Of a stretch of DNA of 64,000 nt, positions 4,199-57,100 are shown in pieces; position 1 is the stretch's first letter; each line of letters opens with the position of its first letter. Under the pieces are notes generated by a model. The model worked only from the letters and a program-made list of their open reading frames with translations. It was not told the origin of the DNA and did no database searches. The position numbers and the translations under genes are program-made. The stretch is from Artocarpus heterophyllus (lineage: Eukaryota > Streptophyta > Magnoliopsida > Rosales > Moraceae): the NCBI GenBank assembly GCA_025403435.1, contig CM046353.1:26510259-26574258 (forward strand). The letters are read 5' to 3'.

Positions 4199-5785
4199 TG
4201 TAACGTCCAGAAATTTATTTAATGTTAATGTAATGTAAATGATGAATTAGTGTGCCATAATTAAATTTTTAACTTTAATTAGATTATTTGGTTGGATTTT
4301 GAGTTTTTGGTTGTTTTGTTAAATTGATGCATTCAAATGATTTCTTATTGATTTAAAATGATGTTTTGAGTTTTAAAACACAACAATTTGTAAAATGTTA
4401 AAAATACTCCGTTTTGCAAAACCGTGGGCGGCACATGGTTTTCGCACAATAAAACCGCCCACCGATTTTCTCTATTTATTTCCCTCTTCTCTCTGTCTCT
4501 CCTCACTCTCACGTTTCACTCTCTCTCTCTTCTCTCATCTCTCTCGGCAACCTCACTCTCTCTCTCTACATCTCTCTCAAATTTTAAAACAAATTCGAAT
4601 CCAAGCTTCGGGATAGCAAGGAGGAAGCTCGGGGACGTGATTCGGCAACCGAGAACGCGGATTGAAGCTTCGATTCGAGGTTAGATTCGAAATTTTCTAA
4701 ACTTTTTACAAAATTTTCAATTTTGTGTGTTTTTGAAATCTAAGTTTGTTTTAGCTTAGAAAACCGTGGATTTGTGTTAAATGAACTTAGAACAACTAGA
4801 ATCTAAGCCTAGATTGAAGAAAAACGGATTGAATTCAAGATTTTTCATTTTTCCCCTCATTTTCTCATTTTCGGATTTTTGAGGATTTTGAGTTTAAATG
4901 TTGTTTAAATGATTCCAAACATGTTCTAGAATGTTTTTCTATCAACTATAGTTGTTTTTCATGCCTGGGATTTGAGAAAAACAGGTTAGAAACAAGATTT
5001 GGATTTTGGGGATCGAGAAACCCGTGGCTGGGATTTCTGGGTTTTCCCAGTTCGGCAGGCCGAAGTTCATGTTTGGCAGGCCGGAGTGATGATCGGCAGG
5101 CCGGTGTTCTTCCGACCGGCAGGCCGAATCTGGGGAAATGTTCGGCAGGCCGAACCTTGTTTCCGGTAGGCCGAACTGTGCAGTTCGGCAGGCCAAAGCA
5201 GGACGTCCGGCAGGCCGACCGAGGCATGGAAAATTTTGTGATTTTCACCCGTTTTCACTGTTTTGAACCCAGATTTAAATCCCAACCTTATAGGATGATT
5301 TTAAAGGTACAAATGGCACACTAGGACATCATGAAATGATTTAGTAACATAGAATGTTTCGAACTAGATATTAATCGACTTAGTTTGTATCTAGGATCGT
5401 TCGTGGTTCCGTGGAGCTAACGTATAGCGGACCGGGATTGCGGTGTGGGGTACCGGCACGAGTATTGAGGTAGGACTTCTATCCTATTTCTTTGGTAGCC
5501 TGGTTTTGAAATGATTTGGCTTTGAAAAGGATTTCTATCAAAATGTTTTCAACGGTTGTTTGAAAATGGTTTTATCGGTTATATTTTAATATACCGTGAT
5601 CTGAAATGAATTTCATAATAAATGTAATTGACAACACTCGGTAATAGGGTTTTGAATGATAATGATAATAAACACATGGGCATGATGCCATATCAGAGAT
5701 CGGGTCGTGTAGCGATCGACCTTGGGGGCAGGTCCCGAAACCCAGCTGGGCCACTACGGTGGTGATATCATGGTTTGCCTAGGTA
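4199..5785 (+). repeat. A1 3' LTR, truncated
   Basis: It starts TGTAACGTCC and is clearly homologous to the A2 LTRs. A TATTTATT sequence near 4473 and a CT-rich tract at about 4480-4575 may mark the promoter and transcript start. An array of TTCGGCAGGCCGAA units lies at 5051-5218. After TGGTTTGCCTAGG near 5771 the match to A2 stops; roughly the last 560 bp of the LTR are missing and copia LTR sequence begins by 5808. No other gene is seen here. Confidence 0.85.
5051..5218 (+). repeat. Dyad array in A1 LTR (8 units)
   Basis: Eight copies of TTCGGCAGGCCGAA or near variants start at about 5051, 5072, 5092, 5116, 5141, 5162, 5183 and 5206, so the period is 20-25 bp. The arms TCGGC and GCCGA are inverted repeats around an AG centre. 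Spacers vary in sequence; one is TTCATGTT (from 5066), which recurs in B and C3. Confidence 0.9.
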
Positions 5786-5807
5786 AGAGTAAATTGGTGT
5801 TTTGATT

Positions 5808-6509
5808 GTTTTGATCAGATAACTTCTCTATTGGGTTATTTGAATTAAAACTGATACTTTATCCTTTAGAATCTCGGGTCGAAAACAAAAGATTCACGAA
5901 GTTATTTATTCGGCAGTTCGGCCTGTTGATCCACATGTTTGTCCTACCGATGGAGCTGTTCGGCCTACTGATCATCCTGATCGGCCTGCCGATGAGCGAA
6001 GGATAAGGTCACGCGTTTGTATATAGATCTTATCAGATATTGATCCGAATTTGATTTTGTTTCAAATTTTGAGACCTAATCTAATAAGAGCTGACCCTAG
6101 ACCCAACCTCTATAAATAGGGAGTAAGTCACATAAGTTATTTAGATCAATTAAGAGATTAAGAGTGATACTCTGCTGTTGAGAATATGAAAACTCCCTAA
6201 GAGCTTTTGTTCACAAATCACAAACACTAGCTTTGGGTTTTCTTAATTGGTTGGAAGGAGAGTCACTTGGTGGAAGAGCTGTACTGTGAGCCCACACTCA
6301 CTCCGATCGTGGATAGAGAATAGTAAAGAAGACCAGTTTGTTGAGGCTCTTCTAGAACGTTACTTCTCTTGATTGATTGCAGGAGCTTTTCGGCACACAA
6401 AGGTTAGTAAGATTTAGTTAATTTATGCATATAGCATGTCAAACTTGTGTTTTGAAAAATACTCTGATGTAAAATTTTAAAAATTCCGCTGCGTACTATT
6501 TTTTCAACA
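5808..6509 (+). repeat. C1 5' LTR, 3' portion only
   Basis: Homology to the C3 LTR begins at GTTTTGATCAG and runs to TTTTCAACA at 6509, directly before the primer-binding site. It holds a short dyad array (5917-5993) and a TATA box (TATAAATAGG, 6111-6120). About the first 1.3 kb of the LTR is absent. Confidence 0.85.
5917..5993 (+). repeat. Dyad array in C1 LTR (about 3 units, opposite orientation)
   Basis: The units read TTCGGCCTGTTGA, TTCGGCCTACTGA and TCGGCCTGCCGA, which is the CT-centred orientation. Two of the three carry substitutions. The TATA box lies about 118 bp downstream. Confidence 0.8.
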
Positions 6510-6511
6510 AT

Positions 6512-6523
6512 TGGTATCAGAGC
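6512..6523 (+). promoter_or_regulatory. C1 primer-binding site (tRNA-iMet type)
   Basis: TGGTATCAGAGC starts two bases after the LTR end. It matches the primer-binding sequence widely used by plant LTR retrotransposons, complementary to the 3' end of initiator methionine tRNA. Confidence 0.9.
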
Positions 6524-8306
6524 TATGGTTTTTACATATATATACGAGTTTGTGATTGTGTTATATGTATATATTTTGTGATCTTAATCTCTCCTATGCT
6601 TGAATTTAATTTTATAGAGAGTTGGCACTCTAGGTTTCTATATATTATATATGTTGTCATGGATTATGTGGTGAATGTTCATTAATTAATTATAGTTGGT
6701 TAAATTATTATTTAATTATTAATTAATTAATTAATTAATGCCGGTTATGGTTCCTTAGAGGTTAGAATGCGTATCTAGGTTTTTCATGTAATTAGATGGT
6801 GGACTGTCATCTTTGTCTAGGAATTATTATTTATTTTTAAATTTGTAAGAATTTTGTAATTAAATAATTATTCGAAGAAGACAGATCGAGAAGACGGATT
6901 TAGAAGTCAGATCTAGAAGAATGATGATGGCGCTCTCAGGTATTTTTTGAGTCTTTAATTTTATGTTTTTGAATTGTTGAAAATAAAATTGATGAATTGC
7001 ATTAAAAATTGCATTTTCTAGAATGGGAGATTTGTGCTCGGTCGGCATGCCGAACCCCACAGTTCGGCAGGCCGATGGTCACAGGTCGGTGGGCCAGACT
7101 TGAGGTTCGGCAAGCCATCAGTGGGGCAGAAATCAGGAGGCTCTAGCGATAGGCCTAACAGGAAACTTCTAGTTCGACAGGCCAAACTTCCAGCTTGGTA
7201 GGCCAAACTGTCATGAGTCGATAGGCCGATCTTTCTGATCGACAGGCCGATGGAGCATGACCGGTAGGCCGATCACCTAGATCGGCCTGCTGATCGAGAG
7301 CTTAAAAATTTCCTGAAAAAGTGCAGTTTTTTCGGTGCAGTTTTAATTTTGTTTTTGGGACAATTCTGAGAAACATTAAATTTGGAGATGACCAGAAATA
7401 TGAAGTATTCGATTCATACTAGATTGAAGACTTGAAGATGGGCATTATATGAAGAAGGATACAGCTTGAGGATTCAAAGATGAATAATCGATAATATAAG
7501 TCTCGATTATTCTCTTGTAATCTTTGTTTTCTATTCTCTACAGTGGAGCCATAATATTACGGTTATTTATTATTTTGCTTATAGAATTGCTTGATAGTTT
7601 GCTTGTCTATATTATAATATGATTTGCCATATATATTGATAACATGTCATATAGAATAGGGAGTGCCACTCATATTAAAATTGTTCATGTATATTCTTGA
7701 AATAAAACCTTGATTTCAAAAGATTGAGTGGGAGAAGGTTTTCGAAGAGAGAACCTAAGACATCTATCGTTGGTCCACAGGCAGAACATGATGGTCCTGA
7801 CCTCTAGGTAGGGATTTCTATCATGTACCAGGTTGGATCTCTGAGAGGATAAGGTATTTTAGCATGATTCATGGTTGCACACCCCTAGGTGGTGATTATA
7901 AATCATGGATAAAATATTGAAACGATGGTTATACACTGACATTTAAATCATGGATAAAATATTGAAACGATGGTTATACACTCACGTTAATTTTATTATT
8001 AACCTCCCCTAGGAGCTCTGTTAATAAAATTAATGGCCAAAGAAATGATTATTAATATATGCTGGATTATACGGGTCCTAGATGGCATATATTAATCAGG
8101 AGGGGATCGTGTTCCTGATTGAATTTGGCATGACTCCCCTAGGAGCTTGTTGAATTCAGAGTTGGGAATTATCATTGTAAGGTTGTGATATTTTCAAGGT
8201 TTTGACACATAAACACATTAGTATTTTTACATGATTGTGTTATCTAACTAATTTATTATTATATGTTTGCTTATGTTTGGTATATGATTCTTTATTGCAG
8301 ATTAAA
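6524..8306 (+). other. C1 untranslated leader
   Basis: About 1.8 kb lies between the primer-binding site and gag. It is AT-rich except for a GC-rich dyad array at 7042-7295. A putative 5' splice site (CAG|GTATTT, about 6938) and a pyrimidine-rich TTCTTTATTGCAG just before gag (about 8288-8300) match the corresponding C3 positions. Two near-identical segments at about 7898-7930 and 7948-7980 (AAATCATGGATAAAATATTG) look like a small local duplication that C3 does not have. No gene is seen. Confidence 0.65.
7042..7295 (+). repeat. Dyad array in C1 leader
   Basis: About nine degenerate units of TCGGCAGGCCGA lie between TCGGCATGCCGA at 7042 and an inverted last unit, TCGGCCTGCTGA, near 7282. Many differ by C-to-T or G-to-A changes, as expected for methylated CpG decay. 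Confidence 0.8.
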
Positions 8307-11300
8307 AAGCCTAAAAATGCTTTATCATTGATACTTGACAAAAACCTATTAACTGGAGAGAATATAATGATTAGAAACGGAACCTAGATGTCGTCCTATC
8401 CTTTGAGAAACTGAAATATGTACTGACAACCCCTTTTCATCCCAAGCCTACGGGAGACTCAACTGATGAGCAATTCTAAGCATATGATCACTGGAAAGAT
8501 GCTAATGATCAGGCTCGCTGCTATGTGATGGTTAGCGTGAATAACACGTTGCAGGCTCAACATCAGGATTATGAGACTGTGAAGTAGATCTTGGATAATC
8601 TTGAGGATATGTTTGGAGGCTAGGCCATAACAAAGCAGCATGGGGCACTTCAAAAACTCTTAAACTGTAAGCAGAGACCGGGGACATTTATAAAGGAGCA
8701 CATGATGCTGGTCATGGGTTACCTTGCTGAGGCACAAACCAATAGAGCCGACATTGAGCTGAAACTCAGATGACTATGGTCTTTGAGACTCTGTCAAAGG
8801 AATTTATTATGTTTAGAGCTACATTTTATTTAACCAAGAGATGGGATATGACCTTAACAGAATTAATGAAACAGTTACAAGAGTTCAAACTGCTGATCAG
8901 GGAGTCTCCTGCGGGTGGAGAGGCCAACATAGTAGCTGCTTATGGTTCCAAACTCAGCTCTAGGAATGGAAAGAAGCAACAGGCCAAGAATGGAAAGTCT
9001 TTTATTCCAGCTACCACCAAGAGCAAAAAGAAGAAAAAAAAAGAACTCAAAGAAGCTTAAGTGCTTCTTCTATGAGAAGGTCGGGCATATCAAGAAGCAT
9101 TGCAAGGACTTCCTTTCCAAAGGAGGTAGGTGTGATCTTCAATATTTAGAAACTTGTTTGGTTGAGGAATCCAATGACATTTGGGTCGTCGATTCCGGTG
9201 CAACTAATCATGTTTGTGTTTCTCTGCAGGGGTTCAAAGAAACAAGAAGTCTGCTGCATAAGGACATCACGCTTCGGATGGGCGATGGATCCTTGGTCTC
9301 AGAGGAAGCAGTGGGAGACGTCCATCTTTGTTTTGATAATTATAGGAATTTATTTTTACAAGATTGTTTTTATGTTCCCAAATTTAAAAGGAATTTAATT
9401 TCTGTAGCTTGTTTATGTAAAGACGCCTATTTGGTTTCTTTTAATGATAAAATGGTGATTTGTAAAAAAAAATCTTTTATTTGTTCTAGATGGATGCAAA
9501 ATAATCTATATTTTATCAAACCTAAGATGGATTTATTGCTTAATGCTGAGATGAATGATAATAACTCTAAAAGACTTAAAACTTCTCACTCTAATAAGAC
9601 TTATCTTTGGCATTTGCGCCTTGGTCACATTAACCTGAGTAGGATTCAAAGGTTGGTAAGGGATGGACCTTTAAGTCACTTAAAGGTAGAATCTATACCT
9701 CAATGCGCATCTTGTTTGGAGGGTAAAATAACCGAAAGACCATTCGGGTCTAAGGGCAATAGGGCTGAAGGGGTTCTAGAACTTGTGCATAGTGATGTTT
9801 GCGGATCGATGAACATCCTGGCACGAGGAGGGTATGAGTACTTTGTCACTTTTATTGACGATTACTCAAGATATGGGTATGTGTACCTGATGCACCACAA
9901 AAGCAAAACTTGTGACAGGTTCAGGGAGCTTCAGGCTGAAGTGGAAAAGCAATTGGGTAGACCCATAAAGGCACTTCGATCCGATCGAGGTGGGGAATAC
10001 CTTTCTGATAAGTTCTTGGAACACTTATTAGAGAATAGGATTTTATCCCATTTGATTGCACCGGGCACTCCGCAGTAGAATGGCATAGCGAAGAGAAGAA
10101 ATAGGACTTTGATGGACATGATTAGGTCCATGATGAGTTATTCATCATTGCCTTTATCCTTTTTGGGATATGCACTGCAAACCACATGTTATCTTTTGAA
10201 CAATGTGCCTTCAAAATCGGTCCCTAAAACTCGTCACGAGTTGTGGACGGGTAAGAAGATGTCCTTAAATCATATTTGCATATGGGAATGTCTGGCTCAT
10301 GTTCTGTTTAAGGATTTGAATAAGTTGGAAGCACGTTTGGAAGTTTGTATGTTTGTTGGATGTCCAAAATGGACTAAAGGGGGTTATTTCTATAACCCAA
10401 AGGAAAATAAAGTCGTGGTTTCAACTAATGAAACTTTCCTTGAAGAGAGTTACATGGATGACTTTAAACCTCGAAGCAAATTGGTGCTTGAGGAGTTAAG
10501 GAGTGATCCGATCACTCTGAAGGTTCTAAATGAAACCCGTCCGATCAGTGTAGAAAAACCAAACAAACCTGAACAACAACCTAAGGGGCTCGGCATAGTG
10601 GGAGGATCAGGTGTCAACCTGAGAGGTATATGTTTAATGAGGAGGTCTTTTTGGCTGAAGCAGATGAACATGACTAGGATCCTTATACTTACGCAGAAGC
10701 TATGGAGGATGTTGATTGAAAACTCTAGACAAAGGCCCTGAACATTGAGATGAAGTCTATGGAGACTAATTAGGTCTAGGAGCTTGTGGATCTTCCCAAA
10801 GGGGTAAAACCCATAGGGTGTAAGTGGATCTACAAGAGGAAAAGAGGAGTAGATGGAAAGGTCGAAACCTTTAAGGCTAGACTGGTAGCTAAGGGTTATA
10901 CGCAAAAGGAAGGAATCGATTATGAGGAAACCTTTTTGCCTGTAGCCATCCTTAAGTCCATCCGGATTCCCTTGTCCATAGCTACCGCTCTCGACTGTGA
11001 GATTTGGTAGATGGATGTCAAGACAACTTTTTTGAATGGCCATCTTGATGAGTCCATTTATATGGCATAACCAGATGGGTTCAAGGTCACGGGTCAAGAG
11101 GGTAAGGTTTGTAAGCTGTTAAAGTCAATTTATGGACTTAAGTAGGCTTTTCGTTCTTGGAACATACGATTTGATCAGGTTATCAAGACTTATGGGTTCT
11201 CACAAAATGTGGATGAGCCATGTGTTTACAAACACATTAAGGATGAGAAGGTGGTTTTTCTGCTGCTCTATGTAGATGATATTCTGCTAATTGGCAATGA

Positions 11301-12126
11301 CATTGGGGCATTGTCATTGGTCAAATTATGGTTGACCAAGCAGTTTGACATGAAGGACTTGGGTGAGGCTAATTTTGTTCTTGGTATCTAGATCTTTCGG
11401 GATAAGAAGAACAAGAATATAGCTTTATCCCAGGCTGGATACATAGATAAAATTCTCCAGAGGTTTGTAATGGAGGATTCCAAGAAAGGTGGGCAACCAT
11501 CTAGGTCTGGAATTATTCTTTCTAAGAAAGACTCCCCAAAGTCTGAGGAAGAAAGAGAATACATTATGAAGGTGCTTTATGCTTCGACAGTGGGTAGTCT
11601 CATGTATGCCATGCTTTGCACACAATCGGATATTAGTTATGCGGTTGGAATTGTAAGTCGATTTCAGGCAGATCCAGGACCGAACCATTGGGTCACAGTA
11701 AAGCATATTTTCAAGTGCCTGAGAAGGACTCGTGGGTATATGCTTGTGTATTCGTGTGAGGACTTGACTCCTCTAGGATATACTGACTTGGATTTTCAAT
11801 CCTACCTAGATTCTAGGAAATCGACTTTGGGTTTTGTGTTTACTCTGGGCGGCGGTGCCATCAGTTGGAGAAGTGTGAAGCAAGATTACACTTTGGTTTC
11901 AATGATGGAGGCTGAGTATGTAGCAGTTACTGATGTTTCGAAAGAAACAGTATGGCTCCGCAAGTTCCTTGGGGATTTGAGGTAGTTCCTGGTATGGATA
12001 AAGCGGTATCACTGTACTGTGACAACAGTGCGGCGGTAGCTAATGCTAAGGAACCAAGATTTCACAAGAAGAGTAAGCATATTGATCAGAAGTATCATGT
12101 GATAAAGGACTTCATTGAGGGCGAGC
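8307..12126 (+). pseudogene. gag-pol: C1 gag-pol pseudogene (copia)
   Basis: Collinear with the intact C3 polyprotein. The gag ATG is lost: the C3 context AAAATGTCT is AAAGCCT here. Gag has stops at about 8479, 8587 and 8623. The longest open stretches are 8942-10078 (zinc knuckle region with its second Cys changed to Tyr, [14 protein letters not shown]; protease DSGATNHVC; integrase core to about APGTPQ), 10109-10741, 10786-11010 (RT start) and 11209-11391 (RT YVDD box). RNase H follows at 11470-12120. The frame breaks at DFIEG, where the coding sequence passes directly into the 3' LTR, so the last 40 or so residues and the polypurine tract are deleted. It cannot make a working polyprotein. 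Confidence 0.85.
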
Positions 12127-13543
12127 TATTAGACATGTATGCCCTAAGGAGTAAAAATGTAATATGTTTTTAGAGACATTTTTATCAATAAAAAAATTAT
12201 TTATTATTAATATACCAAATCTTGTCCTCTTTACGTTCATATTTGTTGAATATATGTTAAGCAAACAATAGTCTGAGACTGTTGGTCTAAACCTTAAGAA
12301 TTTGGCATGTGATGGACGGATTATGCGGAAGACATGATTCTGAAGGTGATGGTCTAAATCATACGACCTGCAATCGAGGGAATAAAGTTGGGTGCTTTAT
12401 TCATGCAAAGATTATTATGTTTGCTATATTCCTTTTGGGAGATAATTTGTCTTGACCATCATAGTTGCACTCCGTGAATTGAATTATTGGCACGTTGTTA
12501 TAGGTGACGATGTGTTGGATCAGGACATAAAGTGAATTGATTTGGATTAATAATTTTGTCTCAGCAAATCGATTCACTTTAGACAATCATTTGTATTACA
12601 CCTTAATCCTAAGATGAATAGTGGGCCTATTGTCTCGACTTGTGTCTTTTGATGTACCAAAGGGTGACACCCACATCTTAATTGTGGTATGCATGCTGGT
12701 ACATTGGAGGCATGACTCTTGATGGCGTAGACTTGTTATTCATAGATATGGAATCCATAGCTCCTCTTTAAGAGTAATGATATCCTCTTACATGCGTTAT
12801 CCTGTAATTGGAAAACTAGAGCGCTCAACCATTTGGATACATAGGTGTAACCGAATGGTATATTGTCTTTGGATGGTAAGTTTTCTGATGGTGAGATAAT
12901 GGAATGTAAGATAAAAGTAATCGGGAAGGTAAGACAGAACTTGTCCTTAAGTCGATTATGGATTATCATATGGGGATACGATACACTATGATATGTCATG
13001 GAGACTTAGCTATACGGGCTTCACAATTCTATGTAGTTCGAGAGTGCAGCTCCAAGCTTTTAGTAGAGTAGTGTTGGAGTTGATGATTATGAAATGAATA
13101 TATGGGATATTGGGTTTCATAATTATCGGGAGCTTGAACTATATAGGTCCATTTGGTCCCCTTTGCTAGCTTACAACATCCTATAACGACACGGCGTGTT
13201 TTTCCAATAATTGGTGACTTATGTCAGATTTATCAGATTGGTTAAAATTTGGAGAATAAGATAATTCATGTCTGTTTATCGGTTGAATTAATTTTGTGAT
13301 AAAATTGATTCAAGATAAACTTGTTGAATTATAAGGATCGGATAATTCTTGTCAGTTTATCCATTGATTTAATTTTAGATAAATTAGATCAGGATAAACT
13401 TGTAGAATTATTGGGAATTGATTTATTTTCTTAGAGATTATCTAGATAAAGTTGTTTTGATCAGATAACTTCTTTATTGGGTTATTTGAATTAAAACTGA
13501 GACTTTATCCTTTAGAATCTCGGGTTGAAAACAAAAGATTCAC
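12127..13543 (+). repeat. C1 3' LTR, 5' portion only
   Basis: It starts TATTAGACATG, where C3 has TGTTAGACATG, so the terminal TG has decayed to TA. It is homologous to about the first 1.4 kb of the C3 LTR and stops at GATTCAC (13543), just before the position of the dyad array in intact LTRs. Element D sequence follows. Confidence 0.8.
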
Positions 13544-15008: not shown

Positions 15009-17135
15009 TGTAACGCCCCGAAATTTGTTTAATGTTAATATAATATAAATGATGAATTAGTGTGCCGTAATTAATGTTTCAACATTAATTTGATTATTAG
15101 GTTGGATTTTGAATTTTTTGATTATTTTGTTAATTTGATGAATTCAAATGATTTCTTATTGTTTAAAATGATGTTTTGAGTTTTAAAACATAATGATTTG
15201 TAAAATGTTAAAAATATTCCGTTTTACAAAACCGTGGGCGACACATGGTTTTCGCACAGTAAAACCGCCCACCGATTTTCTCTATTTATTCTCTCGCTTC
15301 CTCCTCTCTCCTCACACTCTCAGGTCTCTCTCTCTCTCCCTCTCTCTTCTTTGCCGAGACACTCTTCTCTCTCTCTATCTCTTTCAAAATTTTTGAAACC
15401 AAATTCGAATCCAAGCTTTGGGTTAGCAAGGAGGAAGCTCGGGGACGTGATTTGGCAATCGAGAACGTAGATTGAAGCTTCGATTCGAGGTTAGTTTTTA
15501 AATTTCTAAACTTTTTCCCAAAATTTTCAATTTTGTGCATTTTTGAAATCTAGGTTTGTTTAAGCTTAGAAAACCTTGGAATTGAGTTAAATGAACTTAG
15601 AACAACTAGAATCTAAGCTTAGATTTAAGAAAAACGGATTGGATTCAAGATTTTTCATTTTTCTCCCTATTTTCTTATTTTTGGATTTTTGAGATTTTTG
15701 AGTTTAAATCTTGTTTAAACGAGTCCAAATGTGTTTTAATATGTTTTTCTATCAACTATGATTGTTTTCTATGCCTGGGATTTGAGAAAATAGGTTAGAA
15801 TCAAGATTTGAATTTTGGGGATCGAGAAACCCATGGCTGGATTTCTGGGTTTTCCCAGTTCGACAGGCCGGGATAAGGATTGGCAGGCCGGTGTTCTTCC
15901 GTCTGGCAGGCCGAACCTGGGGAAATGACCGGCCGACCGGACCTGGCTTCCGGCAGGCCGAACTGTACAGTTCGGCCGGCCGAAGCAAGGAGTTTGGCAG
16001 GCCGGCTGAGGCATGGAAAATTTTGTGATTTTTTGCCTGTTTTCATTGTTTTGAACCCTGATTTAAATTCCAACCTTATAGGATGATTTTAAAGGTACAA
16101 ATGGCACACTAGGACATAATGAAATGGTTTAGTAACATAGAATGTCTCGAACTAGATATTGATCGACTTAGTTTGTATCTAGGATCGTTCGTGGTTCCGC
16201 GGAGCTAACGTATAGCGGTCCGGGATTACGGTGTGGGGTACCGGCACGAGTATTGAGGTAGGACTTTTACCTTATTCCTTGATAGCCTAGTTTCAAATGA
16301 TTTGGCTTTGAAAAGGGATTTCTATTAAAATGTTTTCAACGGTTGTTTGAAAATGAATTTATCGGTTATATTTTAATATACCGTGAATTGAAATGAACTT
16401 CATAATGAATGTAAATGATAACACTCGGTAATTGGGTTTTGAATGATGATGATATTAAACACATAGGCATGATGCCATATCAGAGATCGGGTCGTGTAGC
16501 GATCGACCTTGGGGGCAGGTCCCGAAACCTAGTTGGGCCACTACGGTGGTGATTCTATTATGGTTTGCCTAGGAAAGGAAAATGATATTATTGGTTATAC
16601 GGGTAAACTGTTTTGGATAAGAATGGTTTTACTCAAATTTATGTATTTATTTATTCAAGGTTTCTTTTAAATAACTCCTGAATAATGACCTGTTTCTTTA
16701 AATTAGATTATTTTATAAAACATAGTCCTATTGAGCCTTTCGCTCACGTTTTATTTGTTTTAAATTTCCCCCTCTAGGTGGTTTTCCATTTAGGTTTGGA
16801 GAAGATTCAACGGACAGGATCCAGGAGCAGTAGAGGATTAGTAAATTCATTTGTAATATTTAAATCAAGGCATGTAAGATCTTAATTTTATTTGTACTTG
16901 GACTGTGATTGTATTTATGATATTGTCAGTACCATGTGTATGCACAAGTTGTGGGTTTGTGGAACCCATACTCGCTATGTTATTCTTTTATATCAATTAT
17001 TTATGCAATGGTTTTCTTTAAATTTTCACATTTTATATTTTATTTAAACCCCTAAACCCTTGATTTTTAATTAAACTCTCTTTTAATTAATTTAAATAAT
17101 CTGCCACATCACCTCCTGTACTCCGGGGCGTGATA
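15009..17135 (+). repeat. A2 5' LTR (2127 bp)
   Basis: It starts TGTAACGCCCC and ends GGGGCGTGATA, where the 3' LTR ends GGGGCGTGACA, so the ends form inverted repeats (TGTAACGCCCC / GGGGCGTGACA). A CT-rich tract lies at 15295-15385, a dyad array at 15859-16005, and a short hairpin (CCACTACGGTGG) near 16540. It is 20 bp shorter than the 3' LTR because one dyad unit is missing. Confidence 0.92.
15859..16005 (+). repeat. Dyad array in A2 5' LTR
   Basis: About six or seven variants of TTCGGCAGGCCGAA, including TTCGACAGGCCGG, CTGGCAGGCCGAA, CCGGCAGGCCGAA and TTCGGCCGGCCGAA. One 20-bp unit present in the 3' LTR (22703-22722) is absent here. Confidence 0.85.
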
Positions 17136-34552: not shown

Positions 34553-34557
34553 GTTAT
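34553..34557 (+). repeat. C3 target-site duplication, left copy (GTTAT)
   Basis: A perfect match to GTTAT at 44272-44276. Confidence 0.95.
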
Positions 34558-36222: not shown

Positions 36223-36615
36223 GAGTGAGTCTAATGATTTACTCAGATCAATTTGAGAGATTAAGAGTGATACTCTTCTAGTGAGCATCTGAAAACTCCC
36301 TGAGAGCTTTTGTTCACAAATCACGAACACTAGCTTTGGGTTCTCTCTATTGGTTGGAAGGAGAGTCACCGGTGGAAGAGCTGTACGTGTGAGCCCACAC
36401 TCACTCCGGTTGTGGATAGAGAATAGCAAAGAAGACCAGTTGGTTGAGGCTCTTCTGGAACGTTACTTCTCTACACAGGTCGCGGAGGTTCTTCGGCACA
36501 CTGAGGTTAGTAAGATCTGTTTAATTTATACATATAACATGTCATACTTGTATTTTGGAAAATACTCTGATGAAAATTTTTTAAAAATTCCGCTGCGCAC
36601 TTTGTTTCCAACAAT

Positions 36616-41200: not shown

Positions 41201-42222
41201 TTAAGAATGGGAAGGTGGTTTTTCTACTACTCTATGTAGATGACATTCTGCTAATTGGCAATGACGTTGGGGCGTTGTCATCGGTCAAATTATGGTTGAC
41301 CAAGCAGTTTGACATGAAGGACTTGGGTGAGGCTAATTTTGTTCTCGGTATCCAGATCTTGCGGGATAGGAAGAACAAAATGATAGCTTTGTCACAGGCC
41401 GGCTACATAGATAAAATTCTCAGGAGGTTTGCAATGCAGGATTCCAAGAAAGGTGGGCAACCATCTAGGTCTGGAATTACTCTTTCTAAGAAAGACTCTC
41501 CAAAGTCTTATGAAGAAAGAGAATACATGAAGAAGGTGCCTTATGCTTCGGCAGTGGGTAGTCTCATGTATGCCATGCTTTGCACTCGACCGGATATTAG
41601 CTATGCGGTCGGGATTGTGAGTCGATTTCAGGCGGATCCAGGACCGAACCATTGGGTTGCGGTAAAGCATATTTTCAAGTACCTGAGAAGGACTCGAGGG
41701 TATATGCTTGTGTATTCGGGTGAGGATTTAACTCCTCTAGGATACACTGATTCGGATTTTCAATCCTGCCTGGATTCTAGGAAATCGACTTCAGGGTTTG
41801 TGTTTACTCTGGGTGGCGGTGCCATCAGTTGGAGAAGTGCGAAGCAAGATTGCACTTCGGATTCAACGATGGAGGCCGAGTATGTGGCGGCTAGTGATGC
41901 TTCGAAAGAAGCAGTGTGGCTCCGCAAGTTCCTTGGGGATCTTGAGGTAGTTCCTGGTATGGATAAAGCGGTATCACTGTACTGTGATAACAGTGCGGCG
42001 GTAGCTAATGCTAAGGAACCAAGATTTCACAAGAAGAGTAAGCATATTGATCGGAAGTATCATGTGATAAAGGACTTCGTTGAGAGCGGGCATGTCATGG
42101 TGTGCAAGATCGCGTCAGAGGACAATTTAGCTGATCCATTTACGAAGACACTTTCTGGGAGAGTCTTCGAAAGGCATGTGGAAGCTATGGGGATGCGAAA
42201 TTTGCAGTATTTACTCACTTAG
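38269..42222 (+). CDS. gag-pol: C3 gag-pol polyprotein, intact (1317 aa)
   Basis: One frame encodes the whole copia polyprotein. I start it at [12 protein letters not shown] (ATG 38269), not at the in-frame ATG at 38197, because the same start is used in C2 (49565) and sits just after the conserved acceptor-like site. Capsid domain lies in residues 1-220. Zinc knuckle [14 protein letters not shown] begins at residue 253. Protease is DSGATNHVC with Asp296. Integrase has an HHCC region at about 433-475 and catalytic Asp497, Asp560 and Glu596. Reverse transcriptase runs about 830-1090 with Asp904 ([11 protein letters not shown]) and YVDD at 989-992. RNase H runs about 1155-1290 with TDSD, MEAEY and CDNSAA. 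All catalytic residues I can check are present. Products would assemble cytoplasmic virus-like particles and copy the RNA into DNA. Confidence 0.97.
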
Positions 42223-42236: not shown

Positions 42237-44271
42237 TGTTAGACATGTATGCTCTAAGGAGTAAAAATGTAATACGTTTTTGGAGACATTTTTATCAATA
42301 AAGAATTTATTCATTTATATATACCAAATATTGTCCTCTTTACGTTCATATTTGTTGAATGTATGATAAGCAAACAGTAGTCTGAGACTGTCAGTCTAAA
42401 CCTTAAGAGTTGGGCATATGATGGGATGATTATGCGGTAGACACGACTCTTAAGGTGATGGTCTAAAATATATGATCCGCAATCGAGGGAATAAAGTTGG
42501 GCGCTTTATTCATGTAAAGATTGTTATGTTGTCTATATCCCTTTTGGGAGATGGTTTGTCTTAGCCATCGGAGTTGGACTCCGTGAATAGAAACATTGGC
42601 GCGTTGTCATAGGTGACGATGTGTTGGATCGGGACATAAAGTGAATTGATTTGGATTAATAATTCTGTCTTGTCAAATTGATTCACTTTAGACAGTCGTT
42701 TGTATTGTATCTTAATCCTGAGATGAATAATGGGCCCGTTGTCTCGACTTGTGTCTTTTGATGTACCAATGGGTGACTCCCACATCTCTATAGTGGCATG
42801 CATGCCGGTACGTTGGAGGCATGACTCTTGATAGCGTAGACTTGTTATTCATAGATATGGAATCCATAGCTCCTCTTTAGGAGTAATGATATCCTCTTAT
42901 ATGCGTTGTCCTGTAATTGGAAAACTGGAGCGCTCAACCATTTGGATACATAGGTGTAACCGAATGGTATACTATCTTTGGATGGTAAGTTTTCTAATGG
43001 TGAGACAATGGAACGTAAGATAAAAATAATCGGGAAGGTAAGACAGAACTTGTCCTTAAGCCGATTATGGATGATCATATGGGGATGCGATACACTATGA
43101 TATGTCATGGAGACTTAGCTACACGAGCTTCGTAATTCTATAAAGTTCGAGAGTGCAGCTCCAAGCTTTTAGTGGAGTAGCGTTGGAGTTGATAATTGTG
43201 AAATGTATATCTGGGATATTGGGTTTCATAGTTATCATGAGCTTGAACTTTATAGGTCCATTTTGGTCCCCTTTGCTAGCTCACAAAATCCTGTAACGAC
43301 ACGGCGTGCTTTTCCAATAATTGGTGACTTATGTCGGATTTATCAGATTGGTTTAAAATTTATAAGAATCAAATAATTCATGTCTGTTTATCGGTTGAAT
43401 TAATTTTGTAAGAAATTAGTTCAAGATGAACTTGTTGAATTATGGCGTTCGGATAATTCTTGTCTGTTTATCGGTTGTTTTAATTTTGGACAATTAGAAC
43501 AAGATAAACTTGTAGAATTATTTTGAATTGATTTATTTTCTTAGAGATTATCTTGATAGAGTTTGTTTTGATCAGATATCTTTTCTATTGGGCTATTTGA
43601 ATCAAAACTGAGACTTTATCCTTTAGAATCTCGGGTGGAAAATAAAAGATTCGCGGAGATTTTTTCTCGGCAGTTCGGCCTGCCGATCAGAAAGTTCGGC
43701 CTGCCGAACTGGCCAGTTCGGCCTGCCTATCTCACAGTTCGGCATGCCGACCGCGACAGCTAAGATTACGCGTTTTTCACGCGTATCTTATCAGATATTG
43801 ATCCGAACTTGATTCTATTTCGATTTTTGAGACCTAATCTGATATGGACTGACCCCAAGGACCAATAGGTATAAAAAGGGAGTGAGTCTAATGATTTACT
43901 CAGATCAATTTGAGAGATTAAGAGTGATACTCTTCTAGTGAGCATCTGAAAACTCCCTGAGAGCTTTTGTTCACAAATCACGAACACTAGCTTTGGGTTC
44001 TCTCTATTGGTTGGAAGGAGAGTCACCGGTGGAAGAGCTGTACGTGTGAGCCCACACTCACTCCGGTTGTGGATAGAGAATAGCAAAGAAGACCAGTTGG
44101 TTGAGGCTCTTCTGGAACGTTACTTCTCTACACAGGTCGCGGAGGTTCTTCGGCACACTGAGGTTAGTAAGATCTGTTTAATTTATACATATAACATGTC
44201 ATACTTGTATTTTGGAAAATACTCTGATGAAAATTTTTAAAAAAATTCCGCTGCGCACTTTGTTTCCAACA
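42237..44271 (+). repeat. C3 3' LTR (2035 bp)
   Basis: Nearly identical to the 5' LTR. It is 21 bp shorter overall: one 22-bp dyad unit less and one extra base in an A/T run near 44240. TATA box at about 43871. Confidence 0.95.
43674..43751 (+). repeat. Dyad array in C3 3' LTR (4 units)
   Basis: Units start at 43674, 43695, 43717 and 43738. It lacks one of the two identical 22-bp repeats of the 5' LTR. Confidence 0.95.
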
Positions 44272-49565: not shown

Positions 49566-51254
49566 TTTAATCTATAATAAAGAATCATATACCAAATATA
49601 AGCAGACATATAATAATTTCGTAAGATAACACAATCATGTTAAAACATACAAATGTGTTTATGTGTCAAAACCTTGAAAATATCACAACCTTACAACGAT
49701 AATTCCCAACTCAGAATTTAACAAGCTCCTAAGGGAGTCATGCCAAATTCAATCAGGAACACGGATCTCCTCCTGATTAATATATGCCATCAAGGACCCG
49801 TATGATCCAGCATATATTAATAATCGTTTCTTTGGCCATTAATTTTATTAACAGAGCTCCTAGGGGAGGTTAATAATAAAATTAATGTGAGTGTATAACC
49901 ATCGTTTCAATATTTTATCCATGGTTTATAATCACCACCTAGGGGTGTACAACCATAAATCATGCTAAAATACCTTATCCTCTTAGAGATCCAATCTGGT
50001 ACATGATAGAAATCCCTTCCTAGGGGTCGGGACCACCATGTTCTGCCTATGGACGAACGATGGAGGCCTTAGGTTCTCTCTTCGAAAACTTTCTCCCACT
50101 CAATCTTTTGAAATCAAGGTTTTATTTTAAGAACATGCATGAACAATTTTAATATGAGCGGCACTTCCAATTCTATATGACATGTTATCAATATACATGG
50201 CAAATCATATTATAATGCAGACAAGCAAAGCAATCAAGCAAAGCTACAAGCAAAATAATAATAACCGCAATATTATGGTTCCACCCTAGAGAATAGAAAA
50301 CTAGGATTACGAGAGAATAATCGAGACATATATCGATTCTTCATCCTTGAATCCTCAAGTTGTATCCTTCTTCACGTAATTCCCATCTTCAAGTGTTCAA
50401 TCCCGTATGCATCAAATACTTCATATTTTTGGTCATATCCAAATTTAATGTTTCTCAGAACCATCTCAAAAATAAAATTAAAACTACACCGCAAAAATTA
50501 CACCTTTTTTGAAAAATATGCAGCTCTCGGTTGGCAGGTCGATCTGGGAGATAGACCTGCTGGTCATGCTCCATTGGCCTACCGATTAAAAAGATCGGCC
50601 TATCAACCCATGAAAGTTCCAGTTCGGCCTGTCGGCAGAGCCAGCCGATTTCTGCCCCACTGACGGTCTGCCAAACCACACGTTCGGCCTGCCGATCTGT
50701 GACCATCAGCCTACCGATCTGGAATGTTCGGCATGCCAACCGAACAGAAATCTCCATTCTAGAAAATACAATTTTAATGCAATTCATCAATTTTATTTTC
50801 AATAATTCAAAAACATAAAATTAGAGACTCAGCAAATACTTGGGTGCGCCATCATCAATCTTCTAGATCCGCTTTCTAGATCTGTCTTCTAGATCCGTCT
50901 TTTCTGAATAATTATTTAATTACAAAATTCTTACAAATTTAAAATTAAATAACAATTCTTAGACGGAGATGATAGTCCACCATCTAATTACATGAAAAAC
51001 CTAGATACATATTCTAACCTCTAAGGAACCATAACCAGTATAAATTAATTAATTAATAAATAATTAAATAACAATTTAATCAACCATAATTAATTAATGA
51101 ACATTCACCATATAATCCATGACAACATATAATTATATAGAAACATAGAGTGCCAACTCTCTATAAAATTAAATTTAAGCATAGGGGAGATTAACATTTC
51201 AAAATTTATGCATATAACATGATCACAAACTTGTGAATTTATGTAAAAAACATG
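49566..51254 (-). other. C2 untranslated leader (minus strand)
   Basis: It matches the C3 leader. It holds a dyad array at 50530-50740 and the candidate splice-site region near 50842 (GTATTT). No gene is seen. Confidence 0.75.
50530..50740 (-). repeat. Dyad array in C2 leader
   Basis: About seven degenerate units such as TTCGGCCTGTCGG, TTCGGCCTGCCGA and TTCGGCATGCCAA as read on the plus strand. Orientation relative to the element is the same as in the C1 and C3 leaders. Confidence 0.85.
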
Positions 51255-52208: not shown

Positions 52209-53695
52209 TGTAACACCTGCCAATTTCTATGTAACGGATTAGGTTAAATGAATATTGACATTAAATAATTTCTATATTAATATGTGTTATGATATTACTA
52301 ACTATTTTATGTTAAGTATTATGACAGGTGACGGCCACGTGGAATTGATGTGTTCAAGGAGTTCATGTCATTTATGTAGTGTGTTTAACAATTTATTTAA
52401 TGTTTTAAATATGGCAGTTCGGCAGGCCGAACCTTCATGTTCGGCAGGCCGAATTGTCCTCATGGAACGGCAGGCCGATGTAATTTCATTGGCAGGCCGG
52501 ACTCCATGCCTTCGGTAGGCCGAACTGTGCAGTCGGTAGGCCGAAGATGGCTGACGAACAATCAGCAATGATCTCTCCAAAATTTTGATTGAGATAATTA
52601 CGATGATTGGTTATGATTAGATGATGATTTGTGATTGATTGGCTTATTTTTGGATTGATTGCTCTAATTTTGGTAAAGAAACCTTTGACTTTTGATTGAT
52701 TGGAATTAATTGATGAAGTTTCCTCCTTTGAAAAGTAAAATACGGTAAGATTAGCAAATCGATTTGACTTTCCTATTTTCCCCTCCAATCTCCACGTGAA
52801 TCTCTCCCAAATTTTAATCAGAAATTTCTGAAAAATCATAGAGAAGACACCCCTTCCTTTTATGCCATTTTCAATTTTCACGTATACAAACCTCCTCTTT
52901 CTACCATGCTCTCTCTCTCTCTTTATCTCCTTTCTCCTCCACAAAATTTCTTCCTCTTTTCTCCTTTATTTTCTTGCAAATACTTAAAGAAAGATTGAAT
53001 TTTCGTTGGGATAAATTCAAGGAAGAATTGAAGAATCTTGTTTTGAGGTAAGAGACTCTTTCAGCAATCCTGAAATTTTAAATACTCTATATTGTGACTG
53101 CCATATCTTTCTCTTAAAATTTCATTTTGCGCTGAATTTTTAATATGTTATTCATGTATGTGTTATGTGCTAACGCTCAAAATTTCACCTCAATTGGACT
53201 TTTCTACACTGAGATATGAATTTTCTTCTCTATGCCACTCACTGCAAATTAATGCTGATCGGTGACGTTGTTTTGTCTTTATGTTCCGACCCCCATAACT
53301 TTGTCTAGGAATTTTATTTTGCTCTGAAATTTTATTATGATGTTCACATATGTGTTAGGTGATTTTCCTCCAAGTTTCACATTATTTGATTTTTCTACAT
53401 TGAGATATGAATTTTCTACTCTCTGCCATTTACAGTAAAATGTTGCTGTTTGGTTATGATGCCTGAAAATATGATTTTTGTACAAGGGGTAAATGTGCTT
53501 TGTTTACTACGAAATTTGGGAAATATGTTCACGTATATGTTAAGTTATGAACTGGAAATTTTGGTGATGATTTGATGAAAATTTTATGTGTTATTGAATT
53601 TTCATGGAGGTCAGTGATGTATTTTGTGTTGACAATTTTAGTCTAATGTTCTAATAGTGATGAAATGTTTTATGAAATTGATATTTTCAAGAAAA
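52209..53695 (+). repeat. B 5' LTR with two deletions
   Basis: Compared with the 3' LTR, about 566 bp is missing at 53606 (joined at a shared TTCAT). Everything after ATTTTCAAGAAA (about 53695) is also missing, including the LTR end. A CT-rich tract at about 52905-52945 may mark the transcript start. The array is at 52418-52545. Confidence 0.85.
52418..52545 (+). repeat. Dyad array in B 5' LTR (6 units)
   Basis: Units start near 52418, 52440, 52467, 52488, 52511 and 52532, mostly TTCGGCAGGCCGAA. The 34 nt at 52420-52453 are identical to 37226-37259 in the C3 leader. Positions 52513-52533 are identical to 5164-5184 in the A1 LTR. Confidence 0.93.
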
Positions 53696-54153
53696 AGAGT
53701 TATGCTGACAGAAGAAGAAGACCCTTAGAATTCGCTATAGGCGAATATGTGCTCTTGAAGGTTGCACCAATGAAAGGAGTCATGAGATTTGGTAAGAAAG
53801 GCAAGTTGAACCCAAGATTCATCGGTCCTTATGAAATTGTGAAGCGGATAGGTAGAGTAGCTTATCAGCTGAGGTTGCCCTCGAAAATGTCCACAATGCA
53901 TGACGTGTTCCATGTTTCGATGCTCAAGAAATATGTTCCAGACTCTACGCATGTGATTGAGCTACAAGTGATCGAGATACGAGAAGACTTAAGTTATGAA
54001 GAAAAACGAGTGGAGATACTTGATCGGAAAACCAAGACCTTGAGGAACAAAGAAATTCTATTGGTCAAGGTGCTTTGGCGAAATCACCAAGTAGAAGAAG
54101 CTACATGGGAACGCGAAGACGATATGAGAACTAAGTATCCGCAACTGTTCTGA
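53665..54153 (+). pseudogene. B chimeric frame: LTR-derived start fused to integrase C-terminus and chromodomain-like tail (162 aa)
   Basis: The first nine or so residues (MFYEIDIFK) come from the LTR. The rest is the integrase C-terminal region of B: KKSYADRRRRPLEF, GPYEIVKRIGRVAYQLRLP, HDVFHVSMLKKYVP, and a chromodomain-like end with LVKVLWRNHQVEEATWE and a final YPQLF. The fusion was created by the deletion that removed the rest of the element. The frame is open, but nothing shows that it is expressed. The tail differs clearly from A1/A2, so B is a separate family. Confidence 0.75.
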
Positions 54154-54174
54154 GTTTCGAGGACGAAACTCTTA

Positions 54175-54189
54175 GAAGGTGGGGAGAAT
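54175..54189 (+). promoter_or_regulatory. B polypurine tract
   Basis: GAAGGTGGGGAGAAT lies directly before TGTAACACCC of the 3' LTR. A TTCGAGGACGAAACTC sequence just upstream matches the corresponding A1 region. Confidence 0.8.
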
Positions 54190-57100
54190 TGTAACACCCA
54201 TCAATTTCTATGTAACGGATTAGGTTAAATGAATATTGACATTAAATAATTTCTATATTAATATGTGTTATGATATTACTAACTATTTTATGTTAAGTAT
54301 TATGACAGGTGACGGCCACGTGGAATTGATGTGTTCAAGGTGTTCATGTCATTTATGTAGCGTGTTTAACAATTTATTTAATGTTTTAAATATGGCAGTT
54401 CGGCAAGCCGAACCTTTAAGTTTGGCAGGCCAAATTGTCCTCATAGAACGGCAGGCCGATGTAATTTCATCGGCAGGCCAGACTCTATGCCTTCGGCAGG
54501 CCGAACTGTGCAGTCGGCAGGCCGAAGATGGCTGACGAACAATCAGCAGTGATCTCTCCAAAATTTTGATTGAGATAATTATGATGATTGGTTATGATTG
54601 GATGATGATTTGTGATTGATTGGCTTATTTTTGGATTGATTGCTCTAATTTTGGTAAAGAAACCTTTGACTTTTGATTGATTGGAATTAATTGATGAAGT
54701 TTCCTCTTTTGAAAAGTAAAATATGGTAAGATTAGCAAATTGATTTGACTTTCCTATTTTCCCCTCCAATCTCCACGTGAATCTCTCCCAAATTTTAATC
54801 AGAAATTTTTGAAAAATCATAGAGAAGACACCCCTTCCTTTTATGCCATTTTCATTTTTCACGTATACAAACCTCCTCTTTCTACCACTCTTTCTCTCTC
54901 TCTTTATCTCCTTTCTCCTCCACAAAATTTCTTCCTCTTCTCTCCTTTATTTTCTTGCAAATACTTAAAGAAAGATTGAATTTTCATTGGGAGAAATTCA
55001 AGGAAGAATTGAAGAATCTTGTTTTGAGGTAAGAGACTCTTTCAGCAATCCTGAAATTTTAAATACTTTGTATTGTGACTGCCATATCTTTCTCTAAAAA
55101 TTTTGTTTTGCTCTGAATTTTTAATATGTTATTTATGTATGTGTTATGTGTTAACGCTCAAAATTTCATCTCAATTGGACTTTTCTATGCTGAGATATGA
55201 ATTTTCTTCTCTATGCCACTCACTGCAAATTAATGCTGATCGGTAACATTGTTTTGTCTCTACGTTCCGACCCCCATAACTTTGTCTAGGAATTTTATTT
55301 TGCTCTGAAATTTTATTATGATGTTCACATATGTGTTAGGTGATTTTCCTCCAAGTTTCACATTATTTTTATTTTTCTACATTGAGATATGAATTTTCTA
55401 CTCTCTGCCATTCACAGTAAAATGTTGCTGTTTGGTTATGATGCTTGAAAATATGATTTTTGTTCAAGGGGTAAATGTGCTTTTTTTACTACAAAATTTG
55501 GGAAATATGTTCATGTATATGTTAAGTTATGAACTGGAAATGTTGGTGATGATTTGATGAAAATTTTATGTGTTGTTGAATTTTCATTAAGACTAGGTTT
55601 TGAAACTGCTCTATAAGTGAATTATTGAATTCTAGTTGTGTGATGTTTTTGTATGATTAAATGATTTTATTTGGCATTAGGATATTTTTGTGTTATTGTA
55701 ATATATGTTAATAAGATGTTAGTATAAATTTTTAAAATTAAAATATATGTATTTTTATTGTTAGAAAATATTTTCAAAAGATTACTCACTGCCTTTCAAA
55801 CCTAAGATAGTTTTATTACTGATTTTCAAATGTGTGTTTTGACCTCCTCCGATTTTTGTTGAAGCCAATTTTTGGATATGTTAGAAATCCGTATGTCTAC
55901 TATCTATGTTAATTTTTGTAGATTTTTCTATGGTGTCAAAATGTGTTAAACAGACCCAAGTTTAAAGTTGTTCACTGACTAGTTATTGCTGGCAGATTTT
56001 TGTGTGCATGATATATGACTTGTTTTTTATACTAAATGTAATTTTTATGACTAAAGAAAAATTACGTTAACATGTTTATTTGTTGACTTTATCCCTGCCA
56101 AGTGTGGTACTCGAATTATCTGTAAATGTTTAGTTATTAAGTCTTAAATTCATGGAGGTCAGTGATGTCTTTTGTGTTGACAGTTTTAGTCTAATGTTCT
56201 AATAGTGATGAAATGTTTTATGAAATTGATATTTTCAAGAAATGAAAAGGATATATGATGAAACATGTTATTGGAAGAGATTATGAAGTGTTGATGATTT
56301 CATGGTTTCTGGAAAATATATGTTAATTGCTATTTTTATTAATGTATGGCATGAACACAATATGAAGCGAGCACATCGAGACCGTGGCGTTGTCACCTAC
56401 AATATTAAGGTTAAGTAAGCTACACAAGTAAGTACATTCTCACCTGCAATATGATATGTTTTATAAGGTTTGAAATTATGTGCATAATGATAATTATTCT
56501 ATGATTGATTTTATGATGGTTTCATTTAAAGTTCTCTTATGAAATATTTTGATGTTCATAAAGTTATGCATGTATGATGATGACGTATTTCAAAGCATGA
56601 AAGTTTAAATATGTATATATATGTATCACATAAATAAGTGTTGCACACCAATATTATGATATGTTATGATGTCATGTTTGGTTTAGGATTAGATACCCTT
56701 TTCCTCTCATGACGGCGCGCCTACGATGATGATTATGGTGCAACACTTGGGCCCTTAAGATAAAATGGAATAATTTTTAAATTGGTCAATTTTATGAAAG
56801 ATATGTTCCTATGAAAATGTGCCTAGTGCACTATAATGATGATGTTCATAAAATGTTTTAAGTTGTGAGATAATAATGTACTTACTAAACTTTAGCTTAA
56901 TCAGTTTATATCATGTTGCAGATAAGGGTAAGATAGTCATGGATTAGGTGGAGGGCAAGGAAAGGAGTGTGAGCAAAGGATGATGAATTGCAAATGGAAG
57001 AATGCCAAAGAAGGAAGTTTCAGCGATATAAACGACGTTTTAAAATGTTGTGATGTTTCTTTTAAATTATGATTTTATTATTTGGAATCTTTAATTAATT

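Follow-up and report, generated by a model that had tools for sequence, protein, structure and literature searches.

The window analysed here, a stretch of 64,000 nucleotides of Artocarpus heterophyllus DNA (C27:26510259-26574258), contains nested long terminal repeat (LTR) retrotransposons, among them three that we call gypsy A, gypsy B and copia C. One dyad, TTCGGC-AG-GCCGAA, repeated in tandem arrays, is used in LTRs, leaders or linkers by no fewer than four families of such elements in the genome, namely these three and a Sirevirus located outside the window. The arrays are probably upstream activating sequences for a host DNA-binding protein and, in the case of the Sirevirus and gypsy B, an array has probably been exchanged laterally. 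What is new is that one motif stands in LTRs of two copias, one of them a Sirevirus, and of two gypsies, that it bears a footprint of selection in gypsy B, and that there is evidence suggesting that one array crossed the border between superfamilies.

The arrays described by the first-pass annotation of the window are not a new kind of structure, since arrays of CGG-CCG palindromes upstream of TATA have been published for Sireviruses. The RM boxes of Bousios et al. (2010; PMC2829016) are palindromes with a CGG-CCG core, present in 8 to 32 copies per element; they sit in the LTR upstream of TATA and, in elements with an ENV gene, also in the linker upstream of ENV. The paper, a study of Ty1/copia elements, describes RM as Sirevirus-specific and absent from classic copias, with motifs that mostly differ from element to element, and favours an internal promoter in the linker, which its authors could not identify. 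The dyad shares the CGG-CCG core with these boxes, and the Sirevirus found here has the same LTR and linker layout. The difference is that here one motif, with one preferred centre, occurs in a Sirevirus, another copia and two gypsies. The arrays of the two gypsies and of copia C thereby limit the published statement of Sirevirus specificity.

One dyad in four retrotransposon families

A strict array was defined as at least three units, each with at least 11 of 14 matches to the dyad, separated by gaps of up to 60. Twelve arrays had been annotated in the window, and the dyad is indeed in tandem at all 12 places; the strict scan recovers 11 of them, the twelfth (7041-7294) needing a looser threshold. 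The window has 61 sites with at least 11 of 14 matches; 20 dinucleotide shuffles gave 2.85 on average and never more than 7. The comparison with shuffled sequence, which the first-pass annotation had proposed as a check on itself, came out in its favour, with 11 strict arrays in the window and 0 in the 20 shuffles. Five of the six sites outside strict arrays belong to the degenerate leader array, and the sixth, a lone dyad (12/14) at 27650, stands outside every array.

The annotation had also proposed a search of the whole genome. The assembly searched (985,004,640 bases, 334 contigs) contains 33,063 exact copies of the dyad when the centre is left free and 29,070 when it must be AG or CT; read in reverse, the two patterns give 27 and 1. 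Contig C1 was sampled over its first 1.376 Mb. All 33 places fetched there (36 were listed and 3 not fetched) fall inside matches to the three window families or are at most 120 bp away from one: 10 in gypsy A LTRs, 6 in gypsy B LTRs, 8 in copia C LTRs and 9 in copia C leaders. The same holds for 12 of 12 further, hand-picked places (2 for gypsy A, 5 for gypsy B and 5 for copia C). This sample is biased, the 33 places having been taken in order from one contig and the other 12 chosen as hard to assign; ten systematic stretches of 2.9 kb contained a single array, in a gypsy A LTR. Among the 33, the assignments of 1111990 (78% over 432 bp) and of 974281 and 974370 (78-81% over 86-124 bp) are weak, and for two gypsy B places the matching query came from the locus itself, so that their assignment rests on 73-81% identity to the window. 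All 45 sampled places are thus in, or at most 120 bp from, LTR or leader matches, and there is therefore, as far as sampled, no dispersed satellite of the sort that the annotation had set against its own proposal.

Unit statistics were obtained from 210 units of the window and 30 sampled loci, picked at 11 or more matches out of 14. The core consensus is (T/A/G)(T/C)CGGC-AG-GCCG(A/G)(A/C/T), with an AG centre in 173 of the 210 units. Positions 4, 5, 10 and 11 are G, G, C and C in 93-99% of them, a result that the selection of units itself favours. The outer bases of the dyad avoid symmetrically, C at position 1 and G at position 14. Among the 65 units of the window arrays, 73% are preceded by G and 58% followed by C, by which the dyad grows to 16 bases. 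A period of 20-25 bp had been annotated; over the window and the 30 loci, 139 of 172 intervals measure 20-23 bp and 11 measure 26-27 bp. The description of the arrays as GC-rich patches was accurate as well: seven measured arrays contain 55-66% GC, compared with 31-38% in the remainder of the LTR or leader stretch concerned, and 7.0-9.8 CpG per 100 bp compared with 0.9-3.4.

Arrays differ in the polarity of their units (AG or CT centre): those of the copia LTR are minus, and those of gypsy A, of the copia leader and array 1 of gypsy B are plus. In gypsy A, each LTR of the window carries 7-8 units, in an array whose start lies 850-852 bp from that of the LTR, which is about 2.13 kb long. These arrays, all on the plus strand, lie at 5051-5219 in the 3' LTR of copy 1 (8 units, at intervals of 21, 20, 23, 26, 21, 22 and 22), at 15859-16006 in the 5' LTR of copy 2 (offset 850) and at 22699-22866 in the 3' LTR of copy 2, which has one unit (20 bp) more than its 5' counterpart. 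Each gypsy B LTR, about 3.0 kb long, may hold two oppositely oriented arrays, at offsets of 208 bp and about 2.5 kb, with 5-6 units in array 1 and 6-7 in array 2. In the window, array 1 (plus strand, 6 units in each case) is found at 52418-52545 in the 5' LTR and at 54399-54526 in the 3' LTR; the second array is present in six loci and absent from the window 3' LTR. Copia C has 4-5 units per complete LTR and a further 8-11 per leader, the leader array being in the opposite orientation. Its LTR arrays lie on the minus strand at 5917-5993 in a partial LTR (5806-6509), at 35995-36094 in the 5' LTR of copy 2 (5 units) and at 43674-43751 in the 3' LTR of copy 2 (4 units, 22 bp short of the 5' LTR array), and on the plus strand at 34405-34460 in an inverted LTR fragment (33893-34557). 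The leader arrays are at 7041-7294 in copy 1 (plus strand, degenerate, 11 units at 8 or more matches out of 14), at 37120-37302 in copy 2 (plus strand, 4 + 4 units flanking a 39-bp interval) and at 50530-50740 in copy 3, a minus-strand copy (array on the minus strand, strict part 50623-50740). Arrays may shrink below three units, as at loci L054 and L064. Gypsy A, gypsy B, copia C and the Sirevirus carrier all hold at least 8 copies per element, the number used as a criterion for RM boxes.

The Sirevirus came to light among controls, for which the 3 kb behind the reverse transcriptase of six copia loci (L082-L087) were examined. Five of the six (L082-L085 and L087) are without the dyad in these 3 kb, leaders not included; they represent three families, L083, L085 and L087 sharing sequence. 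The sixth, L086, carries the dyad and is a Sirevirus by published criteria, and a second copy, L089, agrees with it. Both have 4 linker copies of the hallmark Sirevirus polypurine tract (PPT), AGGGGGAG, and in L086 the last PPT is followed by AT/TG, as in Sireviruses. The LTR array of the L086/L089 pair has 11 and 14 units, and the linker holds 3 more. These linker dyads, with a TATA box 10 bp past them in both copies (2/2), form a candidate internal promoter (L086:294-375; L089, reverse strand, 22-100). In L086 a 492-codon open stretch begins where they lie, its sole recognised domain, PF20167, a 'putative plant transposon protein' and not an envelope domain, being located downstream of them; the stretch appears to lie behind pol.

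Selection, decay and probable exchange of arrays

The five gypsy B LTR starts allow ten comparisons. In the nine made between subfamilies, identity is 80-90% in the cores of the units, 40-68% in the spacers and 59-72% in the flanks, and in the tenth, within one element, it is 92%, 91% and 98%, respectively. The dyad is thus under selection in gypsy B, and cores are held during replication of the element and decay once it is inserted. Decay was measured on three pooled LTR pairs, gypsy B being represented by its first 1.39 kb only, with the 560-bp deletion excluded. The two LTRs differ at 16 of 238 core positions compared with 126 of 5,307 others (Fisher p 3.4e-4), the copia pair having 0 differences in cores. 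CpG sites have changed at an equal rate in cores (7/64) and elsewhere (31/282), and non-CpG sites at 9/174 and 95/5,025. The faster decay of the cores is thus partly the cost of their many CpGs, as methylated DNA would show it, which does not amount to proof of methylation. Only two insertions or deletions of at least 5 bp, one of 20 bp and one of 22 bp, occur in the compared LTR parts; both are at or in arrays, and represent the gain or loss of a unit.

Evidence for exchange comes from the order of units and from the spacers between them. When the dyads are masked, matches between LTRs or leaders of different families are no better than E 0.06; without masking, it is on arrays that the listed inter-family matches are located. 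In both the Sirevirus array and array 2 of gypsy B, four units about 22 bp apart are followed by a long interval and then by further units. In two copies of the Sirevirus this interval measures 49 and 51 bp, and in four copies of gypsy B 50 bp. In the other two of the six gypsy B copies with array 2 (L071 and L092), which the two long-spacer tests below omit, the interval is 72-73 bp and would fit 22 + 50 with one unit lost. The long spacer is common to the Sirevirus and gypsy B array 2. It ends in a non-palindromic 11-base tag, GCAAAG(C/G)CTCT, imperfect in some copies, which abuts the next dyad; tag and dyad together are found at 732 places genome-wide, against 0 for the reversed form, the C and G variants both occurring. 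A permutation test of the long spacer, with four of the six Sirevirus spacers and four gypsy B copies, gave p 0.0005, the floor of the test, among 20 tests (same-strand score 8.7, null 3.1), and with all six Sirevirus spacers p 0.002, again the floor. When whole arrays were aligned and compared with shuffled spacers, the pair formed by the Sirevirus and gypsy B array 2 reached z 7.9 (opposite strand 2.2); with the two flanking bases fixed, the score was 71.7 against a null of 60.7 (z 7.2, 0/300; opposite strand z 0.2). Gypsy A against gypsy B array 1 gave z 3.7 (opposite strand 0.9), and the remaining 27 values range from -2.5 to 3.3, the highest being those of the copia C leader with gypsy A and gypsy B.

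Some results count against exchange. In the long-spacer test the opposite strand is also at the p 0.0005 floor (5.7, null 2.4), and the 30 alignment tests were not planned in advance and used 2-4 copies per array class (2 for the Sirevirus, 4 for gypsy B). Short spacers are mostly family-specific, with 4 exact matches over 10 array-class pairs where about 0.4 are expected, one of the 4 lying within copia C. Gypsy A and the Sirevirus have three near matches of short spacers (p 0.001), which are possibly degenerate units. A general exchange of short spacers, hinted at by letter shuffling of a smaller set, was mostly rejected on a larger one; the hint is unreliable because that null ignores the preferred flanking bases.

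The simplest reading of the Sirevirus array and gypsy B array 2 is that a copia family and a gypsy family inherited one array. Template switching in mixed particles is one possibility for the route, and the sequences as such may be read in either direction of transfer. For three unrelated families, the first-pass annotation had named lateral capture as one possibility, beside template switching and strong convergence. Lateral capture has positive evidence in the pair of gypsy B array 2 and the Sirevirus, which lies beyond the window; its backing is weaker where gypsy A is paired with array 1 of gypsy B, and copia C offers hints only (z up to 3.3). Nor are the three families all unrelated, since gypsy A and gypsy B share 56% identity over 154 amino acids of the integrase C-terminus.

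That each family evolved and amplified its own sites everywhere, with no exchange at all, seems doubtful. The family-specific short spacers, and the fact that nothing detectable is shared outside the arrays, are in keeping with such independent recruitment. So is locus L082, from another copia family, in which a different dyad, GGCGCC-TA-GGCGCC, forms an array with a period of 22 (L082:336-531), in the same layout, as if arrays arose repeatedly; its TATA box lies 150 bp past the last clear unit and 100 bp past a degenerate one, and the dyad occurs 2,665 times genome-wide against 0 for its reversed form. The layout has therefore been used more than once, and the special fact is that one dyad is common to four families. 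What disfavours independent recruitment, for the Sirevirus and gypsy B array 2, is their common order, the interval of about 50 bp and the long spacer with its 11-base tag.

Among the papers listed by our searches of the open PMC literature, a single published case of sharing across superfamilies came up, that of maize, where one palindrome is common to structured regions of copia and Helitron elements (PMC10760457, which cites Bousios et al. 2016). Both cases concern two transposable element superfamilies of one genome, an LTR cis-region and a potential for hairpins. They differ in that the maize case came from a motif search of copia and Helitron, whereas here copia and gypsy LTRs are compared, with evidence from order and spacers that one array descended to both.

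A candidate activator array and its alternatives

An activator array is the best-supported mechanism, as far as can be judged from the sequence. A putative host protein would bind each dyad ([TAG][TC]CGGC-NN-GCCG[AG][ACT]) as a dimer, adjacent sites lying about two helical turns apart, and the arrays would drive the TATA promoter of the element; the Sirevirus may have a second, internal promoter in its linker that is driven likewise. During replication, selection would keep the cores; after insertion they would decay, their CpGs as fast as other CpGs of the LTR, and slippage would alter the number of units. The array of the Sirevirus and gypsy B would have passed laterally over the copia/gypsy border, in an event that either involved the array alone or is so old that its flanks have since diverged; in copia C the sites may with equal probability have been recruited independently. 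Tandem repeats acting as activator sites are known from the LTR cis-boxes of Tnt1 and Tto1, which resemble the present arrays in this respect. Those boxes are present in few copies and are family-specific, and they are not known to be dyads shared across superfamilies. Among the papers listed by a search of the open PMC literature no binding factor for the dyad was found, and five forms of the exact motif retrieved only papers unrelated by their title and the start of their abstract.

The position of TATA boxes agrees with an activating role. In copia C, TATA lies 116-119 bp past the LTR array in 14 of 15 copies, a count that omits L054, L064 and L097, whose arrays have collapsed. In the window it is found at 6111 in copy 1, 118 bp past the array if the distance is taken from its end at 5993 (113 bp if taken from 5998), and at 36213-36219 (AGGTATAAAAAGGGA, plus strand) in the 5' LTR of copy 2, 119 bp past the array. 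In the Sirevirus, TATA is 100 and 101 bp past the LTR array (2/2). A random LTR position has a TATA match 86-120 bp downstream in 3% of cases. A TATA box downstream of the array is a likeness of copia C and the Sirevirus to the RM boxes of PMC2829016 that was not found in the two gypsies.

The reading as an activator array meets several difficulties, to which the omission of the three collapsed copies from the TATA count belongs. The fifteenth copia C copy, L068, has no TATA match. For neither gypsy was a convincing TATA box found in the neighbourhood of the arrays, and a conserved GGTTATATTTTAATA is found about 360 bp past the gypsy A array. In copia C the second array, that of the leader, comes after the promoter. 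On the CpG island that counts among the traits of RM boxes, density and ratio give different answers: the observed/expected ratio of CpG in the gypsy A and copia C LTR arrays is not above that of the rest of the LTR, so that their CpG density follows from their GC content. Finally, all 16 core changes between LTRs are transitions, which is weak evidence for methylation because CpG rates are equal and 99 of the 126 changes elsewhere are transitions too.

With more reserve, we consider it possible that the promoter array is a cassette tradable between the copia and gypsy superfamilies, that the families share a host activator and that the roughly 33,000 dyads make up one regulatory layer. If so, the regulatory sequence of transposable elements would evolve partly through exchange between superfamilies, the phylogeny of the elements and the histories of their switches being separate, which would help explain how several families are active in one genome. 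The reader of Sirevirus-type palindromes would become testable, given one motif, at least four families and one expected protein.

A role of the arrays in RNA, as clusters of hairpins diced into small RNAs that trigger silencing or as packaging or dimerisation signals, is unlikely. For maize Sireviruses, the palindromes have been argued to be such silencing triggers. Array RNA does fold far better than shuffles (z -8.3, -4.1 and -7.3), a point that also weighs on the side of RNA against the activator array; an array of palindromes must fold in this way. In copia C leaders (37105-37320 in the window, and others), the arms TTTCTGCTC/GGGGCAGAAA and GCTCT/AGAGC, conserved outside the dyads, close each half-array like a hairpin; being nearly invariant, they say little. 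Small RNAs are attracted by the maize Sirevirus palindromes, according to PMC10760457. The variation of the units, on the other hand, bears no signature of an RNA stem. Among 77 leader units, changes of one half that are compatible with wobble pairing (G.U) number 28 compared with 39 A.C breaks, and at pair 5-10 of the 210 units there are 2 G.T and 13 A.C. In a consensus fold of ten leaders, covariation contributes only 0.31, and 3 of 58 pairs keep a double change. In addition, the copia LTR arrays lie upstream of TATA and hence, presumably, mostly outside the main transcript. The first-pass annotation had taken the shape of the dyad to suggest a protein site, and the variation between units (28 vs 39) does fit a site in DNA better than an RNA stem, a putative protein being its reader.

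It is quite unlikely that the arrays are read by a silencing or anti-silencing factor, whether a host repressor or a trans factor encoded by the elements. Such a factor would equally need a dense array of conserved sites, and sharing across families would fit one that acts in trans. A comparable system exists in VANDAL transposons, DNA transposons whose short motif arrays are read by trans-acting VANC, the product of their own VANC gene. In the present elements, the search for an element-encoded DNA-binding open reading frame consisted of Pfam scans of five open reading frames of the window and one of the Sirevirus. Elements should lose sites for a repressor, yet the cores are conserved across subfamilies, and the position of the copia array just upstream of TATA fits activation better. 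A neutral minisatellite that spread through slippage and was picked up by LTRs could account for the different unit numbers in the LTRs of one element and for the collapse at L054 and L064, and is very improbable given that gypsy B cores are conserved above spacers and flanks, where equal rates in cores and spacers are not seen, and that all 45 sampled places are in or beside LTR or leader matches.

The elements of the window and relatives of copia C

Gypsy A and gypsy B are clearly of the Ty3/gypsy type; they may be chromoviruses, perhaps of a lineage such as Tekay. Gypsy A has Pfam matches to RVT_1, RNase H, Integrase_H2C2 and SH3_Tf2-1 and none to Chromo. The 3' LTR of its copy 1, truncated at the end (4199-5794, plus strand), begins with TGTAACGTCC at 4199 and is 88% identical to 15009-16583. 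The LTRs of copy 2 are at 15009-17135 and 21849-23995 (plus strand), the former followed at 17139 by a primer-binding site (PBS) of the tRNA-iMet type (TGGTATCAGAGC). Gypsy B has a match to SH3_Tf2-1 and one to Chromo slightly under the Pfam cut-off, the latter in its integrase C-terminus (53665-54153, plus strand). Its 3' LTR (TGTAACACC...GGGGGCGTTACA; 54190-57319, plus strand) is the one that lacks the second array known from other copies. Its 5' LTR (52209-53694, plus strand) appears to be internally deleted, 53601-53694 matching 56149-56242; about 560 bp are missing relative to its own 3' LTR.

Copia C copy 2 has a 5' LTR at 34558-36613 (TGTTAG...CAACA), the PBS TGGTATCAGAGC at 36616, a polyprotein at 38266-42222 whose frame is open in the window, with gag, integrase and RVT_2 domains, and a 3' LTR at 42237-44271 with the PPT AGTGGGAG immediately ahead, all on the plus strand. 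Both ends of copy 1 (5806-13543) are inside an LTR, with an overlap of 92 bp (5806-5897 vs 13452-13543, 96.7%), and the copy looks as if cut from a tandem or recombined one. The junction between 5' LTR and PBS, ...TTCCAACA|ATTGGTATCAGAGC at 36613/36614, is Sirevirus-like (CA/ATTGG/TATCAGAGC). Copia C is nevertheless not filed as a Sirevirus because two hallmarks are missing: the Sirevirus PPT AGGGGGAG is absent from its linker, its own PPT being AGTGGGAG, and there is practically no linker, the stop codon ending at 42222 and the LTR beginning at 42237, where a Sirevirus would have several PPT copies in a linker measuring some 1 kb or more.

A scan of genome contigs beyond this genome gave two plant-like contigs, both in bacterial assemblies. 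Among viral contigs, the pattern scan returned 47 loci as bare pattern matches, and a protein search no relative. L102, a relative of copia C from another plant (63% identity), has the same Sirevirus-like junction between LTR and PBS, and its LTR is without an array; the array is therefore not universal in the copia C lineage. L102 (in a Streptomyces fumigatiscleroticus assembly) and L103 (in a Bradyrhizobium sp. MOS002 assembly) are plant-type copia polyproteins on contigs of bacterial assemblies, where they are probably contamination.

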